Notes under the pieces: model-generated
What the model was told of the DNA's origin: nothing
What the model saw: only the letters and a program-made list of their open reading frames with translations
Databases searched by the model: none
Program-made: the position numbers and the translations under genes
From: Chloroflexota bacterium
Lineage (GTDB): Bacteria > Chloroflexota > Dehalococcoidia > Dehalococcoidales > UBA2162
Assembly: GCA_016190825.1 (NCBI GenBank)
Contig: JACPPV010000024.1
Location: 1-64,000, forward strand
Length of the DNA stretch: 64,000 bases
Reading direction: 5' to 3'
Shown: positions 33,425-51,833 of the stretch, one piece after another
Layout: every line of letters begins with the position of its first letter
How positions within the stretch are numbered: position 1 is the first letter of the stretch

Positions 33425-35020
33425 CTATACAGAAGGCGTGCTTTGTTTCAGCAACCAGTATTCCAGGCTGTCCGCCAGGGCAAGCCAGCTTGCCTCGATG
33501 ATATTCGTTGAGCTGCCAACGGTGCGCCATTCTTTATCGCCATCAGATGATTCGATGAGGACCCGGACCTGGGACTCGGTGCCGGTGCTTTCTTCTAGGA
33601 TTCGCACTTTGTAGTCTACCAGCTTGACCGGCGCGATGTTGGGATAATACTGGATAAGCGCCTTACGCAGCGCCTGGTCAAGCGCATTTACCGGACCGTT
33701 GCCTTCTGCGGCGGTGTGTATTATCTCCGTGCCGACCTTGACCTTGATCATCGCCTCAGCCAGCGTTTCCTCCAGATTGTTCCTGGTGGGCGCACGCCGC
33801 CGGGTTTCGATGACAACCATGAAATCAACGAGCTCGAACGGAGCTTTGTAGTCCGGCCTGGTCCGGTGAAACAGTAGTTCCATGGATGCTTCAGCGTTGT
33901 CATACTGGAAGCCGCGGCTCTCCAGCAACTTGACCCGCTCCAGCAACTTCCTGACCTCCGTCCCATCTTCCGATAGGTCGATCCCGAGCTCTCTAGCTTT
34001 GAGAATGATATTCTGGCGGCCGGATAACTCTGATACCACCGCCCTCCGCCGGTTACCCACCTGTGCCGGATCAACATGCTGGTAGCTGTTAGCCCATTTT
34101 GCCATCGCGTGAACGTGGAGTCCGGCTTTGTGGCTGAAGGCGCTGGCGCCGACATAAGGCCGAAACGGGTCGGGCGCCAGATTCGCCGCCTCACTGACAA
34201 AATTGGAGACCTCCGTCAGTCTGGCCAGTTGCTCATCGGTAATACAATCTATGCCCATTTTCAGCTTCAGATTGCCGATGATCGAGCACAGGTTCGCATT
34301 GCCGCATCGCTCCCCAAAACCGTTAATCGTGCCCTGCACCTGGATGGCGCCGGCGTTGAGCGCTACCAGGCTATTGGCTACCGCAAGCTCACCATCGTTA
34401 TGGGTGTGGATTCCCAGGTTAACGCCAGTCGCTGCCTTAGCCGCTTTGACGGCCGCCATGACTTCGCTGGGCAGAGCGCCCCCGTTGGTATCGCATAATA
34501 TCAGGCAGCTTGCTCCCGCCTCCTCCGCCGCCGTTAAACAGCGCAGGGCGTAATCCCGATCGGCTTTGAAACCATCAAAGAAGTGCTCCGCATCAAGGAA
34601 AACGGTCAGCCCCTTTCCCTTCAGATAGCGGACAGAATCGGTAATCATGCTTAGGTTTTCTTCCAGAGATGTCTCTAGCACCTGGGTTACCTGCGGCGCC
34701 GAGCTCTTGCCGACGATTGTGACTGTTCCCGTACCAGCGACGGCCAGCGCGTTGAGGTTGGCATCGGCTTCCGGCCTGGTGTGGGCGCGGCGGGTACTGC
34801 CGAAGGCAACTAGGATGGCGTTTGCCAGTTTCAGCTCTCTGGCACGCTGGAAAAACTCCTCGTCCTTGGGATTGGAGGCGGGCCAGCCGCCCTCAATATA
34901 ATGAACGCCCAACTCATCAAGTTTCCTGGTGATATTCAGTTTGTCCACCACGGAGAAAGAGACGCCTTCGCGCTGAGCGCCATCCCGTAGTGTGGAGTCG
35001 TAAAGTTGAATTTGTGGCAA
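33425..35020 (-). CDS. cimA: (R)-citramalate synthase
   Basis: 'QLYDSTLRDGAQREGVSFSVVDKLNITRKLDELGVHYIEGGWPASNPKDEEFF'; LeuA-like C-terminal regulatory domain. Confidence 0.93.
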   Translation of the reverse strand: MPQIQLYDSTLRDGAQREGVSFSVVDKLNITRKLDELGVHYIEGGWPASNPKDEEFFQRARELKLANAILVAFGSTRRAHTRPEADANLNALAVAGTGTVTIVGKSSAPQVTQVLETSLEENLSMITDSVRYLKGKGLTVFLDAEHFFDGFKADRDYALRCLTAAEEAGASCLILCDTNGGALPSEVMAAVKAAKAATGVNLGIHTHNDGELAVANSLVALNAGAIQVQGTINGFGERCGNANLCSIIGNLKLKMGIDCITDEQLARLTEVSNFVSEAANLAPDPFRPYVGASAFSHKAGLHVHAMAKWANSYQHVDPAQVGNRRRAVVSELSGRQNIILKARELGIDLSEDGTEVRKLLERVKLLESRGFQYDNAEASMELLFHRTRPDYKAPFELVDFMVVIETRRRAPTRNNLEETLAEAMIKVKVGTEIIHTAAEGNGPVNALDQALRKALIQYYPNIAPVKLVDYKVRILEESTGTESQVRVLIESSDGDKEWRTVGSSTNIIEASWLALADSLEYWLLKQSTPSV

Positions 35021-44963: not shown

Positions 44964-44992
44964 TTGACAAACCGCAAGGGTTATGGTAGTCT
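44964..44992 (+). promoter_or_regulatory. Promoter of aro operon, TTGACA-N17-TAGTCT
   Basis: -35 44964-44969, -10 44987-44992, immediately upstream of the leader peptide. Confidence 0.65.
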
Positions 44993-45015
44993 TTCTTCAA
45001 GGATAAGACCAGAAC

Positions 45016-45105
45016 ATGATAAGTAACAGGACTCCCCAGTACCGATATTACTACTACTTCGCTTTTGCGGAGCGCACCGGCTGCGCTTGGGGGGTTGCGG
45101 CGTAA
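45016..45105 (+). CDS. Aromatic-residue-rich attenuator leader peptide MISNRTPQYRYYYYFAFAERTGCAWGVAA
   Basis: Five Tyr (four consecutive), two Phe, one Trp in 29 codons, followed by competing hairpins and the aro operon. Confidence 0.8.
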   Translation: MISNRTPQYRYYYYFAFAERTGCAWGVAA

Positions 45106-45148
45106 GAATACGTCTGAAAGAGACTGTATCCAGACCAAGAGAAAAAAG

Positions 45149-45180
45149 AGACCCTCCCAAGCGGAGGGTCTTAGCATTTT
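45149..45180 (+). terminator. Attenuator terminator hairpin AGACCCTCC-CAAGC-GGAGGGTCT then TAGCATTTT
   Basis: 9-bp perfect stem; U tract on + imperfect; 5' arm can pair alternatively with 45085-45096. Confidence 0.75.
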
Positions 45181-45228
45181 AGGGTCAATAACGAATTAAC
45201 AGTCACCAAATAACGGAGGAGAGAAACA

Positions 45229-46299
45229 ATGATTATCATGAACACCGATGCCACCGAGGAACAGATCAACCGCGTGGTCGAAGAAATCAAGAAGTACGGC
45301 CTGCGCGCCGAAATATCCCGCGGCGCATTCAGGACTATCATCGGGTTGATCGGTGACGAGAGGAAGGCGGACATCGAACGACTGGGAGGCCTGCCGGGCG
45401 TAAAAGAAACCAGGATGATAGAAACACCCTACAAGCTGATAAGCCGGGAATATAACAAAGCCTCCGGCCCCGGCGAGGAGTGCGCCGTCATCAAGGTCGG
45501 TGATGTCGAGATCGGCGGGGATGAGCCAATCTACATTTCCGGGCCGTGTGCTGTGGAGAGCCGGGAGCAGGTATTCCGGATCGCCGAGGGAGTAAAAATG
45601 GCCGGAGCCCATATTCTGAGAGGCGGCGTCTTCAAACCGAGGAGCTCAGCGCACTCGTGGCAGGGTCTGGGCGCCGAGAGCGGCGATCTAGCAATCGAAG
45701 CCCTGACATGGTTGAGAGAAGCCGGAGACCGGTATGAGATGCCCGTCGTCACCGAGGTCAGAGGAGAATCGCAGGTAGATTTGATTGCTGAATATGTTGA
45801 CATCCTGCAGATTGGTTCGAGAAACATGTACAACCAGGACCTGTTAGTGAAAGCGGCGCAGAAGGGCAAGCCGATTCTTTACAAGAGGCATTTCGGCGCC
45901 GGAGCAGAGGAATTCCTCTCATTCGCCGAATACATCGCCTCCGAGGGCAACAAGAACATCATCCTCTGCGAAAGGGGAATCGTCCCGGTGGGCAAGGGTA
46001 AGAGCTTCACACGGTATACCCTGGACCTCGGCGTGGTGCCGGCCATCCAGAAGGAGACCTATCTCCCCATCATCGTCGATCCCAGCCACGCGGCAGGACG
46101 GCGCGACCTTATCTTCAGCATGAGCTGTGCCGGTATCGCGGCTGGCGCTTGCGGACTAATGATAGAGGCACACTATAATCCTTCGGAAGCCCTCGTTGAT
46201 GCAAGCCAGCTGATCACGCCTGAGGAGCTGAAAGAGATCATCACAGTCTGCCAGCAAATTCATAAAGCGACCCGCGCAAGAGCCAATGCCAGGACTTAG
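45229..46299 (+). CDS. aroF: 3-deoxy-7-phosphoheptulonate synthase with N-terminal ferredoxin-like regulatory domain
   Basis: 'MNTDATEEQINRVVEEIKKYGLRAEIS' domain; 'GPCAVESREQVFRIAEGVKMAGAHILRGGVFKPRSSAHSWQGLG', 'IVDPSHAAGRRDLI'. Confidence 0.96.
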   Translation: MIIMNTDATEEQINRVVEEIKKYGLRAEISRGAFRTIIGLIGDERKADIERLGGLPGVKETRMIETPYKLISREYNKASGPGEECAVIKVGDVEIGGDEPIYISGPCAVESREQVFRIAEGVKMAGAHILRGGVFKPRSSAHSWQGLGAESGDLAIEALTWLREAGDRYEMPVVTEVRGESQVDLIAEYVDILQIGSRNMYNQDLLVKAAQKGKPILYKRHFGAGAEEFLSFAEYIASEGNKNIILCERGIVPVGKGKSFTRYTLDLGVVPAIQKETYLPIIVDPSHAAGRRDLIFSMSCAGIAAGACGLMIEAHYNPSEALVDASQLITPEELKEIITVCQQIHKATRARANART

Positions 46300-46303
46300 A
46301 CCG

Positions 46304-47380
46304 ATGAGAAAAGTCAGGGTCAGACTTGGCCCCAGAAGCTATACTATTCATATCGGCTCGGGTATGCTGGAGCAAGCGGGGCAGATCATCAGCCTGCTTG
46401 GATTCAAGGGCAAGGCGGTGGTCATCACCGACCCTGTATTGAAAAGACTGCACAGCGAAGCCTTGATTGAGAGCCTGACCACGAGCGGATTCGATGCGAC
46501 CCTTCTTGAGGTGCCGGCCGGGGAAGAGCAAAAATCTCTGGATGTTGTAGCCAGACTTTACCAGCGCTTGACTGACTGTCTTGCCGAGCGAACGACGCCC
46601 GTCATCGCGCTGGGTGGCGGAGTCATCGGCGATTTAGCCGGATTCGCTGCCGCCACATACCTGCGTGGCGTGCCACTGGTGCAGGTTCCCACCACGCTCC
46701 TGGCACAGGTTGACAGCAGCATCGGCGGGAAGGTAGCAGTCGACCACGGAAGGCTGAAAAACAGGGTCGGGGCTTTCTACCAGCCAAAAGCAGTCATTTC
46801 TGATATCTCTGTTTTGAAAACTCTGGGTAGCAGCGCTTTGAGTGACGGACTGGCGGAAGTAATAAAATCCGGCGTCATTCGCCATGCCGGATTCTTCAGT
46901 TATCTTGAACAAAACACAGAGCGTGTGAAGGCATTCGATGAGCGAGTACTGGAGACAATTGTCTACCGCTCGGCAAGGATCAAGGCAGAAGTGGTATCCG
47001 GTGACGAACTTGACACCGGCCTGAGAAACATCTTGAATTATGGTCACACGGTGGGGCATGCCATAGAATCAGTATCAGAATTTCAGATAAGCCACGGGCA
47101 GGCAGTGGCTATCGGCATGATCGTCGCGGCAAAAATATCCAACCGACTGGGCATCTTGCCGCAAGGGGACTTAGTCAGAATGGCGGAGCTCATCGCGCGG
47201 GCCGGCCTGCCTACCGAACTCCCCGCATTCGAACTGGACAGATTGGTAAAGGCAATGAAGTATGATAAAAAGGTCCTACAAGGTAGGGCCAGGTTCGTTT
47301 TGCTGAAAGCAATCGGGGAGGTATTTCTCTCCGACGGGGTCGAGCAATCGCTTATAGAGCAGGTCCTGCTCGAGAAATGA
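46304..47380 (+). CDS. aroB: 3-dehydroquinate synthase
   Basis: 'VIALGGGVIGDLAGFAAATYLRGVPLVQVPTTLLAQVDSSIGGKVAVDHGRLKNRVGAFYQP', 'LNYGHTVGHAIE'. Confidence 0.97.
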   Translation: MRKVRVRLGPRSYTIHIGSGMLEQAGQIISLLGFKGKAVVITDPVLKRLHSEALIESLTTSGFDATLLEVPAGEEQKSLDVVARLYQRLTDCLAERTTPVIALGGGVIGDLAGFAAATYLRGVPLVQVPTTLLAQVDSSIGGKVAVDHGRLKNRVGAFYQPKAVISDISVLKTLGSSALSDGLAEVIKSGVIRHAGFFSYLEQNTERVKAFDERVLETIVYRSARIKAEVVSGDELDTGLRNILNYGHTVGHAIESVSEFQISHGQAVAIGMIVAAKISNRLGILPQGDLVRMAELIARAGLPTELPAFELDRLVKAMKYDKKVLQGRARFVLLKAIGEVFLSDGVEQSLIEQVLLEK

Positions 47381-48033
47381 AGATTTCCAGGATTTGTGCC
47401 GTCATCGTCAACAGCGACCTGAAAATGATAAGAGAGGTCGAGCCGGTTGCCGACCTGTTCGAGGTGCGCATAGACCTTATCGGCGAAGGGTGGAAGCGGG
47501 TGGTAAGTGAACTGCGCAAGCCGTGGATTGCCTGCAACCGGGCGCCGGCGGAAGGCGGGCAATGGCGAGGAACAGAGAGAGAAAGGATAGAACCTCTCCT
47601 GCAAGCAGCCGAAATGGGAGCAGATATTATCGATATCGAGCTTAACACCGAAAACCTGGTGAATATCATCAGGTCCATTAAGCAGCGGGCGAAGTGCCTC
47701 CTGTCTTTTCACGACCTGGAGAAAACTCCTCCCCTTGAAGAAATGAAAGATATGGTGAGACGTCAGCTCAAAGCAGGGGCGGATTGCTGCAAGGTAGTCG
47801 GCACCGCCCGGAAACCGGAGGATAATCTGGCGATTCTTGAGCTTATCCGGGCGTTTCCAGAGACAAAGCTGATTGCCTTTGCCATGGGGCCGCTGGGGCT
47901 GGTGAGCCGGGTGCTTTGCCCGCTTGCCGGGGGAGAGTTCACCTACGCTTCAATCGAAAGAGGAAAGGAATCGGCCCAGGGGCAGATGACAGTGCGTGAA
48001 ATGCGTGCAATGTATGATATGATACCGGCATGA
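47377..48033 (+). CDS. aroD: Type I 3-dehydroquinate dehydratase
   Basis: 'ADLFEVRIDLIGEGW', 'LLSFHDLEKTPPLEEMKDM', 'GADCCKVVGTA', 'MGPLGLVSRVLCPLAGGEFTYAS'. Confidence 0.95.
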   Translation: MKISRICAVIVNSDLKMIREVEPVADLFEVRIDLIGEGWKRVVSELRKPWIACNRAPAEGGQWRGTERERIEPLLQAAEMGADIIDIELNTENLVNIIRSIKQRAKCLLSFHDLEKTPPLEEMKDMVRRQLKAGADCCKVVGTARKPEDNLAILELIRAFPETKLIAFAMGPLGLVSRVLCPLAGGEFTYASIERGKESAQGQMTVREMRAMYDMIPA

Positions 48034-48902
48034 AAGAGCTAACCATCTCAGGTAAGACCCAAGTCTGCGGGCTGATCGGCGACCCGGTAGAGCACAGCAT
48101 GTCTCCGGCGATGCACAACGCTGCCTTCCGCGAACTGGGACTGGAATATGTATACGCCGCTTTCCGCGTGAAAAGCCAGGATGTGGGCAAAGCTATCGAG
48201 GGGATGCGGGCTCTGAACTTCAGGGGATTGAATGTCACCATCCCGCACAAGGTCGCCGTAATACCGCTGCTCGACGAGCTTGACCCGCTGGCAGAGAAAA
48301 TCGGTGCGGTGAATACCATCGTCAACAACGACGGAAGGCTGCGAGGCTACAATACCGATGCCAGCGGTTTTCTCCAGGCACTGCTGGAGAAGGGAGTCGA
48401 GCCGGAGGGGAAAAACGTTGTCATCCTCGGCGCCGGTGGCGCGTCGAGAGCTATCAGCTTTATTCTCGCTGACCGGGGCGCTCACCTGACAATTCTTAAC
48501 CGGGCACAGGAACTGGACTGGGCAGTGGAGCTTGCGCGCCGGCTGGAAAAGGAATTTGGCCGGAAGGCCGGGGCGCTCGAACTGAACGACCATTATCTCG
48601 CCAGGGTACTGAACAAAGCGGATATACTGGTCAATGCCACAAGCGTAGGCATGAGCCCGAAGGACGGAGAAACGCCGGTGGCTGCGGACCTTCTCAGGCC
48701 GGAGCTCATAGTTTATGATATTGTCTATAACCCGATTAAGACGCGATTGATGAGAGAAGCGGAGGCTGCCAACGCCAGGACGATCGCCGGGCTGGATATG
48801 CTGGTCTGGCAGGGGGCTTTGGCTTTTGAGCTCTGGACAGGCCAGAAACCCCCGTTCAAACTGATGAAAGAGGAAGCCGCAAAGCTGCTGAGCGTGTCCT
48901 GA
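48030..48902 (+). CDS. aroE: Shikimate dehydrogenase
   Basis: 'GLIGDPVEHSMSPAMHNAAF', 'LNVTIPHKVAVIP', 'VILGAGGASRAISFILAD', 'INATSVGMSP'-like 'LVNATSVGMSP'. Confidence 0.97.
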   Translation: MKELTISGKTQVCGLIGDPVEHSMSPAMHNAAFRELGLEYVYAAFRVKSQDVGKAIEGMRALNFRGLNVTIPHKVAVIPLLDELDPLAEKIGAVNTIVNNDGRLRGYNTDASGFLQALLEKGVEPEGKNVVILGAGGASRAISFILADRGAHLTILNRAQELDWAVELARRLEKEFGRKAGALELNDHYLARVLNKADILVNATSVGMSPKDGETPVAADLLRPELIVYDIVYNPIKTRLMREAEAANARTIAGLDMLVWQGALAFELWTGQKPPFKLMKEEAAKLLSVS

Positions 48903-48932: not shown

Positions 48933-48950
48933 ATCCCGACCTGTCGGGAT
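48933..48950. repeat. Perfect palindrome ATCCCGAC-CT-GTCGGGAT between aroE and aroK
   Basis: 8-bp arms read directly. Confidence 0.75.
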
Positions 48951-48975
48951 GAGCGGAGACGAAGGAAAAGAAAGC

Positions 48976-49512
48976 ATGAAAACTAACATTGCTCTCATCG
49001 GTTTCATGGGCACGGGCAAAAGCGCGGTGGGACGGGTTCTCGCCAAAAAAATGAGGCGCAGATTCGTCGAGCTTGACGCGGTAATCGAGCAAAAAGCGGG
49101 GAAGTCCATCCCCGCTATCTTCCAGCAGGATGGGGAAATCGGCTTCCGCGAGCTTGAAATCCAGGCGGCAAAAGACGTAGCGCAGGAAAAGCGCACGGTC
49201 ATTGCCTGCGGAGGCGGCATTGTATTGAACCGCATCAATATCGACCGTCTGAAGGAAAGCGCGGTGATAGTTCACCTGACCGCGTCCCCAAGCGTAATCA
49301 TGAAACGAACCACCAGCGACCGGAATATACGCCCGCTTCTCAACGTGTCTGACCAGGCGCTGCGGATCAAAGAATTGCTCAAATTCAGAAGGCCGTTTTA
49401 CGAGAGGGCCGCCGACGTGACTGTCAACACTTCAAAGCTGGACATTGATGGGGTGGTTGAGCAAATAATAGACACGCTGAAGAATGATGAAAGCCTTAAT
49501 TTCAAGAAGTAA
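48976..49512 (+). CDS. aroK: Shikimate kinase
   Basis: 'NIALIGFMGTGKSAVGRVLAKKM', 'FVELDAVIEQKAGKSIPAIFQQDGEIGFRELE', 'VIACGGGIVL'. Confidence 0.96.
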   Translation: MKTNIALIGFMGTGKSAVGRVLAKKMRRRFVELDAVIEQKAGKSIPAIFQQDGEIGFRELEIQAAKDVAQEKRTVIACGGGIVLNRINIDRLKESAVIVHLTASPSVIMKRTTSDRNIRPLLNVSDQALRIKELLKFRRPFYERAADVTVNTSKLDIDGVVEQIIDTLKNDESLNFKK

Positions 49513-50752
49513 CCTGAGCGGGCGGGTAACCGCGCCATCTTCAAAAAGCTATACCATAAGAGGGCTGCTCTGCGCTGCTCTGGCTACCGGAGAGAGCGAG
49601 ATAATCCGCCCGCTGGGTTCTGATGACACCGAGGCCTCGCTGGGCGTCCTGGGCAAACTGGGAGTCCGCACGCGCCTGGAGAAAGACGTCTGGCATATCC
49701 ACGGCGGTAGCCTTCGTGAGCCCGAAGGCGACCTTTTCTGCCGTGATTCGGCACTAACGCTGAGGTTCATGACGGCGATAGCCTCGACAATTCCCGGCGC
49801 GTGCCATTTGACCGCCGGGCCATCCCTTGCCAGAAGGCCGATTGAGCCGCTGTTGGGGGCGCTGAGGCAACTCGGTGTCGACTGCCGCTTCCACGCAACC
49901 CCCGCCTGCGTTGAGGTGGCCGGCAGGAGACTGACCGGCGGAACTACCAGCCTTCCCGGCAACATAAGCTCGCAGTTCATCTCTGCCCTACTTCTTATCT
50001 CACCCCTCGCCGAAAAAGGAATGTCCATTCGGGTGACCACGCCCCTTGAATCGCAGCCCTTCGTGGCAATGACATTGGAATGCCTTAACATTTTCGGTGT
50101 CGAAGTGAAAGCCTCTGAAGATTGGAGGCACTTTGACACCGCCAGGCAACGCTACCGGCCAACCCGGTACATGGTGGAGGGCGACTGGTCTTCAGCATCC
50201 TACCTCGTTGCCCTGGGGGCTCTCGGCGGCGAGACTACTGTCGAAAATCTCAACCCGCAAAGCCTGCAGGGAGACAAAGCAATAGTGGATTTTCTGAAGG
50301 AGATGGGGGCTCCTGTCGATATCGGGGAAAACTCTGTGAAGGTCGGCAGTGCCCGGCTCAAAGGAATAAAAGCCGACTTCACCGACTGCATTGATCTCTT
50401 ACCCACGATGGCTGTCCTGGCTGGCGCCGCCGAGGGACGGAGCGAATTTACCGGCATCGCCCGCGCGCGCCTCAAGGAATCGGACCGGGTGGCAGCGATG
50501 AGGGAGGGACTAGAGAGGACGGGAATAAGGGTCATCGAGGAGCAAGACCGGCTGATAATCGAGGGCGGCTCTCCCAAAGCGGCCGTCATCGATTCCAAGA
50601 ACGACCACCGCGTTGCCATGGCATTCAGCATGCTTGGCACACTGGCTGGCGGAATGGTCATTGAACAGGCGGAATGCGTTAGCAAGACATTTCCTGAGTT
50701 CTGGGATATATTGAAAAGCCTCGGGGGTTCTGTAAAGCTGGATGAAGAATAG
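49484..50752 (+). CDS. aroA: 3-phosphoshikimate 1-carboxyvinyltransferase (EPSP synthase)
   Basis: 'APSSKSYTIRGLLCAALATGES', 'SALTLRFMTAIA', 'LKESDRVAAMREGLERTG', 'DHRVAMAF'. Confidence 0.97.
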   Translation: MMKALISRSNLSGRVTAPSSKSYTIRGLLCAALATGESEIIRPLGSDDTEASLGVLGKLGVRTRLEKDVWHIHGGSLREPEGDLFCRDSALTLRFMTAIASTIPGACHLTAGPSLARRPIEPLLGALRQLGVDCRFHATPACVEVAGRRLTGGTTSLPGNISSQFISALLLISPLAEKGMSIRVTTPLESQPFVAMTLECLNIFGVEVKASEDWRHFDTARQRYRPTRYMVEGDWSSASYLVALGALGGETTVENLNPQSLQGDKAIVDFLKEMGAPVDIGENSVKVGSARLKGIKADFTDCIDLLPTMAVLAGAAEGRSEFTGIARARLKESDRVAAMREGLERTGIRVIEEQDRLIIEGGSPKAAVIDSKNDHRVAMAFSMLGTLAGGMVIEQAECVSKTFPEFWDILKSLGGSVKLDEE

Positions 50753-51833
50753 CTTCGGTCAAAAATTCTGCGTGACCACTTTCGGCGAAAGTCACGGGCG
50801 GTGTGTCGGTGCCGTTATTGACGGCTGTCCAGCCGGGCTGCCCATCACCGAGTCTGATGTTCAAAGAGAAGTCGACCGGAGAAGGCCGGGGCATGTCCCC
50901 GGCGCAACAGCTCGTGCCGAAGAGGACAAGGTTGAAATCCTTTCCGGGGTTTTTAGGGGGCAGACCACCGGCGCTCCCATCCTAATGCTGGTGTGGAACC
51001 GGGATGTTGATTCCAGCCAATACGAGAGAATCAGGCTAACGCCCCGACCGGGACACGCTGACTACACCGCTTATATTAAATATGGCGGTTTCAACGACTT
51101 CCGCGGGGGTGGGCGTTTTTCGGGGAGGATAACTGTTACCTTTGTCATGGCGGGAGCCGTAGCGAAAAAGCTGCTCGCCAGAGCGGGTGTGGAAATTCTG
51201 GGTCACACCGTTGAAATCGGCGGGATACAGGCGGAGCGCAAAGCGATAGAAGAAATCAAGCGGAACGCGGAGACCAACCCCCTGAAATGCGCCGACCCGG
51301 TGGCGACGCTGGAAATGATTCGAGCCATCGAGGCGGCCCGCGCCGAGGGCGATAGCATCGGTGGGATTGTTGAAGGTATAGCTCTCGATATGCCTGCCGG
51401 CATCGGAGAGCCGGTCTTCGATACCCTGGAGGGAGAGCTGGCAAAAGCCCTTTTCGCCGTTCCGGCGGTGAAGGGAGTCGAGTTCGGAGCCGGCTTTGAC
51501 GCAGCGAAGAAAAGGGGCTCGGAAAACAATGATAATTACGCTGTCAGGGACGGCCGGATAGTAGCTTTGACAAATAACGCCGGGGGCATACTGGGGGGCA
51601 TCAGCAACGGCATGCCAATCGCCGTTCGCGTAGCTTTCAAGCCGACGCCATCAATAAGCCGGGAGCAGAAAACGGTAAACCTGGCAGCAATGGAAAACAC
51701 CACCCTTTCAGTGAAGGGACGGCATGATGCCTGCATCGTGCCCCGCGCCGTGCCGGTCATCGAAGCGGTAATGGCCATGACCCTGTGCGATTTCGCACTG
51801 AGGGCCGGGCTGATTCCGGAGTTACTGAAATGA
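50742..51833 (+). CDS. aroC: Chorismate synthase
   Basis: 'FGQKFCVTTFGESHGRCVGAVIDGCPAGLPI', 'RPGHADYTAYIKYGGFNDFRGGGRFSGR', 'GRHDACIVPRAVPVIEAV'. Confidence 0.97.
   Translation: MKNSFGQKFCVTTFGESHGRCVGAVIDGCPAGLPITESDVQREVDRRRPGHVPGATARAEEDKVEILSGVFRGQTTGAPILMLVWNRDVDSSQYERIRLTPRPGHADYTAYIKYGGFNDFRGGGRFSGRITVTFVMAGAVAKKLLARAGVEILGHTVEIGGIQAERKAIEEIKRNAETNPLKCADPVATLEMIRAIEAARAEGDSIGGIVEGIALDMPAGIGEPVFDTLEGELAKALFAVPAVKGVEFGAGFDAAKKRGSENNDNYAVRDGRIVALTNNAGGILGGISNGMPIAVRVAFKPTPSISREQKTVNLAAMENTTLSVKGRHDACIVPRAVPVIEAVMAMTLCDFALRAGLIPELLK

Follow-up and report, generated by a model that had tools for sequence, protein, structure and literature searches.

Among the described regulatory systems, the aroR-aroF leader of Corynebacterium glutamicum and pheL of Escherichia coli are closest to the locus reported here. 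The E. coli systems pheL-pheA, pheST and trpL possess a leader peptide with cognate codons and are regulated by attenuation according to the availability of charged tRNA, in which pheL senses Phe for pheA alone and not Tyr, while the E. coli DAHP synthase genes are under control of TyrR and TrpR (PMC11802643). In C. glutamicum, a leader peptide containing Phe-Tyr-Phe precedes the DAHP-synthase operon and ribosome stalling results in readthrough; as reviewed, the system responds to Phe limitation and not to Tyr availability (PMC11802643). Leader attenuators have been placed in Proteobacteria, Actinobacteria and some Firmicutes, and those of Actinobacteria and Firmicutes use the same mechanism for Trp, branched-chain, Cys or His genes (PMC1262725, PMC2965389, PMC9413887). 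As far as the accessible parts of these surveys extend, the actinobacterial one contains no such leader structure for Phe or Tyr, and none of the three places a leader attenuator in Chloroflexota. In open papers, to which the search was confined, nothing relevant on attenuation in Dehalococcoides or Chloroflexi was found, and any priority is provisional. T-boxes (RF00230) resemble these systems in sensing tRNA charging and controlling termination, but they read the tRNA directly and have no translated leader; for Dehalococcoides, a T-box in front of trpE was already reported (PMC2494555).

The aroF locus and its leader

The analyzed DNA of 64,000 nucleotides (the window) derives from an uncultured member of the Dehalococcoidia (Chloroflexota), and metagenome assemblies of this class are the nearest named relatives of its genome. 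In the window, a promoter, a 29-codon open reading frame (ORF) and a terminator hairpin precede the eight-gene operon aroF-aroB-aroD-aroE-aroK-aroA-aroC-pheA (Table 1). A first-pass annotation had located the promoter, the ORF, the hairpin, the complementary strands, a competing hairpin at 45071-45087 and the start of aroF at 45229, and direct reading confirms these coordinates to the base. With high confidence, we interpret the region as an attenuator of transcription in which the ribosome senses charged tRNA-Tyr and tRNA-Phe, and perhaps Trp in some relatives. The sequence comparisons strongly support attenuation of this shikimate-to-Phe operon, which is very probably expressed only under a shortage of charged tRNA for tyrosine or phenylalanine. 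In comparison with aroR-aroF as described in a review (PMC11802643), the run of regulatory codons is longer and mostly Tyr, the whole shikimate-to-Phe operon lies downstream and the phylum is another one. The mechanism is a textbook one; what is added is its conservation throughout a lineage in which no description of it was found.

Table 1. Features of the leader region and of the downstream operon in the window.
Feature	Position	Strand	Remarks
Promoter TTGACA-N17-TAGTCT	44964-44992	+	TTGACA 44964-44969, spacer 17, TAGTCT 44987-44992; recurs in relatives
Leader peptide ORF, 29 codons, MISNRTPQYRYYYYFAFAERTGCAWGVAA	45016-45105	+	read directly; recurs in relatives
Region 1, ACTCCCC	45031-45037	+	pairs with 45089-45095 (protective helix 1:2); predicted in fold
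Regulatory codons	45040-45066	+	Tyr TAC 45040, TAT 45046, TAC 45049, 45052, 45055; Phe TTC 45058, TTT 45064
Hairpin AGCGCA-CCGGC-TGCGCT	45071-45087	+	inner part of protective structure; competes with antiterminator
Region 2, CGCTTGGGGGG	45084-45094	+	antiterminator 5' strand within leader ORF; duplex energy, own versus permuted, covariation
Terminator hairpin AGACCCTCC-CAAGC-GGAGGGTCT	45148-45172	+	stem 45149-45171 extended by G45148-T45172; covaries
Region 3, CCTCCCAAGCG	45153-45163	+	antiterminator 3' strand (terminator 5' arm and loop); covariation
Interrupted U tract AGCATTTT	45173-45180	+	after stem; weak in the window's genome
aroF (DAHP synthase)	45229-46299	+	ATG at 45229; TIGR01361 / DAHP_synth_1, ferredoxin-like N-terminal domain
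aroB	46286-47380	+	operon member 3' of aroF
aroD	47377-48033	+	operon member
aroE	48030-48902	+	operon member
aroK	48949-49512	+	operon member
aroA	49484-50752	+	operon member
aroC	50742-51833	+	operon member
pheA (chorismate mutase, prephenate dehydratase, ACT)	ends 52897	+	last gene of operon

Conservation of leader, promoter and terminator

Orthologues of aroF (>60% identity) occur throughout the order, and a few further families of the class have them too. For 82 distinct orthologues above this threshold, the DNA upstream of the gene was compared. A short ORF with a dense run of Tyr, Phe or Trp codons, followed by a GC-rich hairpin, was found before aroF in 81 of the 82 upstream regions. 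The exception comes from a genome with two copies of aroF and is the second of these (L064 2098-3147, the same as L117; 62% identity) that sits directly after another gene and has neither leader nor terminator. A DAHP-synthase paralogue 42-49% identical to aroF is common, and none of ten upstream regions of the paralogue carried an aromatic leader ORF or a terminator. The order aroF-aroB-aroD-aroE-aroK is maintained in relatives. At L058 (3001-4074), aroF has no other aro genes downstream and the aromatic leader and terminator are still there. For L009, leader and hairpin are visible by eye and the automatic terminator pick took the wrong run; this region was kept in the sets of 81 (leader counts, duplex energies, own-versus-permuted comparison and Shine-Dalgarno (SD) words), which it can only weaken, and was excluded from the alignment A1, the ribosome-edge folding and the U-tract count. 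The sequences behind all statistics are related to each other, which the shuffles do not take into account.

A short ORF with seven aromatic residues in 10 codons, as present in the window, occurred in one of 1620 shuffled upstream regions and in one of 750 tiles of 340 nt across the window, the leader ORF itself included. In 79 of the 81 leaders, the best stretch of 10 codons contains 5-9 aromatic ones, while shuffles have a mode of 3 and 4.6% of them reach 5. Tyr codons are present in all 81 leaders, Phe codons in 79 and Trp codons in 52, and from the start of the run to region 2 the leaders contain altogether 297 Tyr (170 TAT, 127 TAC), 169 Phe and 53 Trp codons. As Tyr and Phe codons are near-universal and Trp occurs in many leaders, Tyr is not the sole candidate signal. 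Trp codons lie within the aromatic run in L031, L036, L048 and others, and some of those located just past the run may serve RNA structure rather than sensing. In analogy to attenuators of the trpL/pheL type, the predicted ORF carries codons for the amino acids of its operon: the product of the pathway, which is Phe and in five relatives with tyrA also Tyr, matches the leader codons. In these five, tyrA adjoins pheA, directly after it in four cases and overlapping its end in G020.

The promoter is conserved as well: of 81 regions, 76 have TTGAC-N18..20-TAnnnT before the leader, compared to 0.8 expected from shuffles. In 30 of these 76 the leader ATG follows the -10 box after 6-10 nt; in the window, 23 nt separate the two. 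SD-like words precede the leader start in 10 of 81 regions and the aroF start in 79 of 81. The short distance between -10 box and ATG together with the few SD-like words makes leaderless or SD-independent initiation of the leader likely in many relatives; such starts are known for some leader peptides elsewhere. In L111, L112, L124, L128, L131, L140, L142 and L144-L147 the leader ATG lies about 7-9 nt past the -10 box and lacks a Shine-Dalgarno sequence, and these leader mRNAs are probably near-leaderless. The complete genomes with such leaders are taken by us to belong to the family of Dehalococcoides and Dehalogenimonas; the leader of the complete genome G155 (L124) reads MLNVKSFKNYYYFTKTSLLGR.

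Between the leader ORF and the first structural gene lies an intrinsic terminator, the U tract of which is weak in the window. There, any 8 bases past the stem contain at most four T, placing it among the two weakest of 80 regions, and the window's own terminator may be leaky. It had been cautioned that the plus-strand tract is imperfect and that the same hairpin has a better T tract on the minus strand; the imperfection stands for the window, whereas in the relatives the plus strand is the better one (at least 5 T in 8 in 78 of 80 regions; mean of 6.3 versus 4.8 T on the minus strand), and no minus-strand gene converging on the hairpin was seen in the window. The first letter of the tail TTAGCATTTT assigned to the terminator is the last T of the stem as originally drawn. 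Two-sided (compensatory) changes are present in the terminator in A1; owing to loops of different length in the aligned sequences, a one-column slide scores equal to the structure, and inspection of the individual sequences shows the hairpin more clearly.

Competing helices and the predicted effect of the ribosome

By direct reading, GCTTGGGGGGTT (45085-45096) within the ORF is complementary to ACCCTCCCAAGC (45151-45162), and the whole leader folds 3.1 standard deviations below dinucleotide shuffles (z -3.1), better than 200 of 200. The duplex of the 3' part of the ORF with the terminator has an energy of -25.1 kcal/mol in the window versus -13.7 kcal/mol in shuffles, of which 0 of 200 were as good, and across the 81 leaders the means are -20.6 and -11.9 kcal/mol, with p <= 0.05 in 74 of them. 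Region 2 pairs with its own terminator at a mean of -21.5 and with those of relatives at -18.45 (standard deviation 0.32), a difference of about 9 standard deviations, and this preference persisted when the set was thinned by similarity to 69 representatives. In A1, comprising 48 sequences aligned without structure, 92% of the antiterminator cells are paired compared to 38-65% when the helix is slid, and 44 two-sided changes were counted versus 8.7 in shuffles, with 7 of 11 pairs carrying such changes. As the helix lies partly in the terminator loop, this covariation is evidence separate from that for the terminator. The 3' part of the ORF and the terminator 5' arm can form a helix that is mutually exclusive with the terminator.

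The antiterminator strand would in turn be sequestered by protective pairings. For these, the hairpin at 45071-45087 had been proposed, and it does covary, with 72% of cells paired, two-sided changes in 5 of 6 pairs and a covariation score reached by 0 of 500 shuffles, with one slide (-2) close. The predicted fold contains a second protective arm that the first-pass annotation had not noted, region 1, just 5' of the Tyr codons. The pairing of region 1 amounts to -12.3 for own, -10.3 (standard deviation 0.28) for permuted and -8.7 for shuffled strands in the 69 representatives, 81% of its cells are paired and 6 of 7 pairs carry two-sided changes. In L006, L010, L034 and L036 the strands of region 1, region 2 and the terminator have all changed together, to CTCTC 5' of the run, to GAGAGG or GAGGGG (in L036, GAGAGT) in region 2 and to CCCTCTC or CCCTCTT in the terminator strand. 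Inner hairpin and outer arm enclose the Tyr run, so that stalling of a ribosome within the run would disrupt both. Alignment of the aroF upstream regions of relatives, named beforehand as the check that could refute the proposal, thus found the ORF and both alternative helices conserved and covarying, and the classical attenuation logic of the first-pass annotation is supported by an ORF, promoter, terminator, antiterminator and competing hairpin that are conserved with compensatory changes.

From these conserved and coevolving parts we infer the transcription start, the stalling, the readthrough and the effector amino acids as follows. Transcription would start about 7 nt past TAGTCT and a ribosome would then translate the 29-codon leader. 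If both tRNAs are charged, it would reach the stop codon and cover region 2, allowing the terminator to form and turning the operon off. Under a shortage of charged Tyr- or Phe-tRNA, the ribosome would stall at 45040-45066 and disrupt the protective pairings (45031-45037 with 45089-45095, and 45071-45087), and the freed region 2 would pair with 45153-45163 before the 3' arm of the terminator is made. The antiterminator formed in this way would permit transcription of aroF through pheA.

The spacing is consistent with this model. The median distance from the beginning of the aromatic run to that of region 2 is 36 nt, and when only the RNA 3' of the ribosome edge, assumed to lie 14 nt downstream, was folded with the transcript extending to the terminator loop, a mean of 11 antiterminator pairs was predicted with the ribosome stalled in the run and 0.04 with the ribosome at the stop codon. 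With this assumed edge, a stalled ribosome is predicted to free region 2 and a terminating one to cover it. At equilibrium, a finished terminator keeps 0.96-0.97 of its pairs in the stalled state in the window and 0.71-0.81 on average; being the more stable structure, it requires that the switch be kinetic and decided during transcription. When the ribosome is left out of the equilibrium model, 62% of leaders form the antiterminator, so the protective helices are not dominant at equilibrium.

Alternative explanations and pathway context

The weak U tract of the window and the terminator that stalled-state equilibrium folding leaves in place would also fit a translational or Rho-linked switch, in which a stalled ribosome would shield the transcript or change the accessibility of aroF, with only a secondary role for the hairpin. 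We regard this as improbable, given the good U tract right past the stem in nearly all regions and the position of the hairpin upstream of aroF, whose start generally has its own SD-like word. Much less credible still is a hairpin acting merely as a terminator, one-way or two-way, with the Tyr-rich ORF and the complementarity accidental: a strict terminator scan of the window called a minus-strand terminator only and none on the plus strand, but conservation, frame and covariation extend over dozens of lineages, the better U tracts of the relatives are on the plus strand and no minus-strand gene is seen transcribed towards the hairpin. A T-box or a metabolite-binding riboswitch for Tyr or Phe might be expected because these genomes have T-boxes on trpE and because the B. 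cereus group has them before genes of tyrosine biosynthesis (PMC2494555). Yet the leader is short, is occupied by a conserved reading frame and shows no T-box sequence element, and neither a covariance-model match to the T-box RF00230 nor any other Rfam family at threshold was found in the window, L001, L002, L111 and L131, which leaves this explanation a minimal probability too.

Ribosome-mediated attenuation at aroF would thus stand beside a second type of control. T-boxes (RF00230) precede trpE in all six genomes tested (L163-L166, L168 and, on contig C5 of the window's own genome, L167 1102-1384), so that tRNA charging would be read by one sensor for the Trp branch and by a different one for the common/Phe/Tyr branch. 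A leader-peptide ORF before trpE had also been considered and was rejected, as the T-box is found there instead. In the window's genome tyrA (L171 1108-1995) is located elsewhere, downstream of a clpC-like gene, and by eye no leader ORF precedes it. The upstream regions of HMGL-family, hisG and pheS genes in up to five genomes showed no convincing leader ORF and no T-box, a weak control as these genes possibly lie inside operons; the window itself has a gene of the HMGL family, of the isopropylmalate or citramalate synthase type, at 34196-35011 on the minus strand.

The broadest reading of these data, in our view about evenly balanced between right and wrong, is a lineage-wide multivalent attenuator for Tyr, Phe and in many species Trp that starts without SD sequence (near-leaderless in presumed Dehalococcoides and Dehalogenimonas) and that, next to a Trp T-box, controls the shikimate pathway of Chloroflexota as a whole. 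The approximately 80 diverged leaders constitute a rich natural data set on the coevolution of an overlapping ORF with three competing helices. Within the same genomes, control of a single branched pathway would be divided between leader-peptide attenuation and a T-box, and a testable amino-acid control of the whole aromatic pathway is predicted for a little-studied phylum that includes the organohalide-respiring Dehalococcoides.
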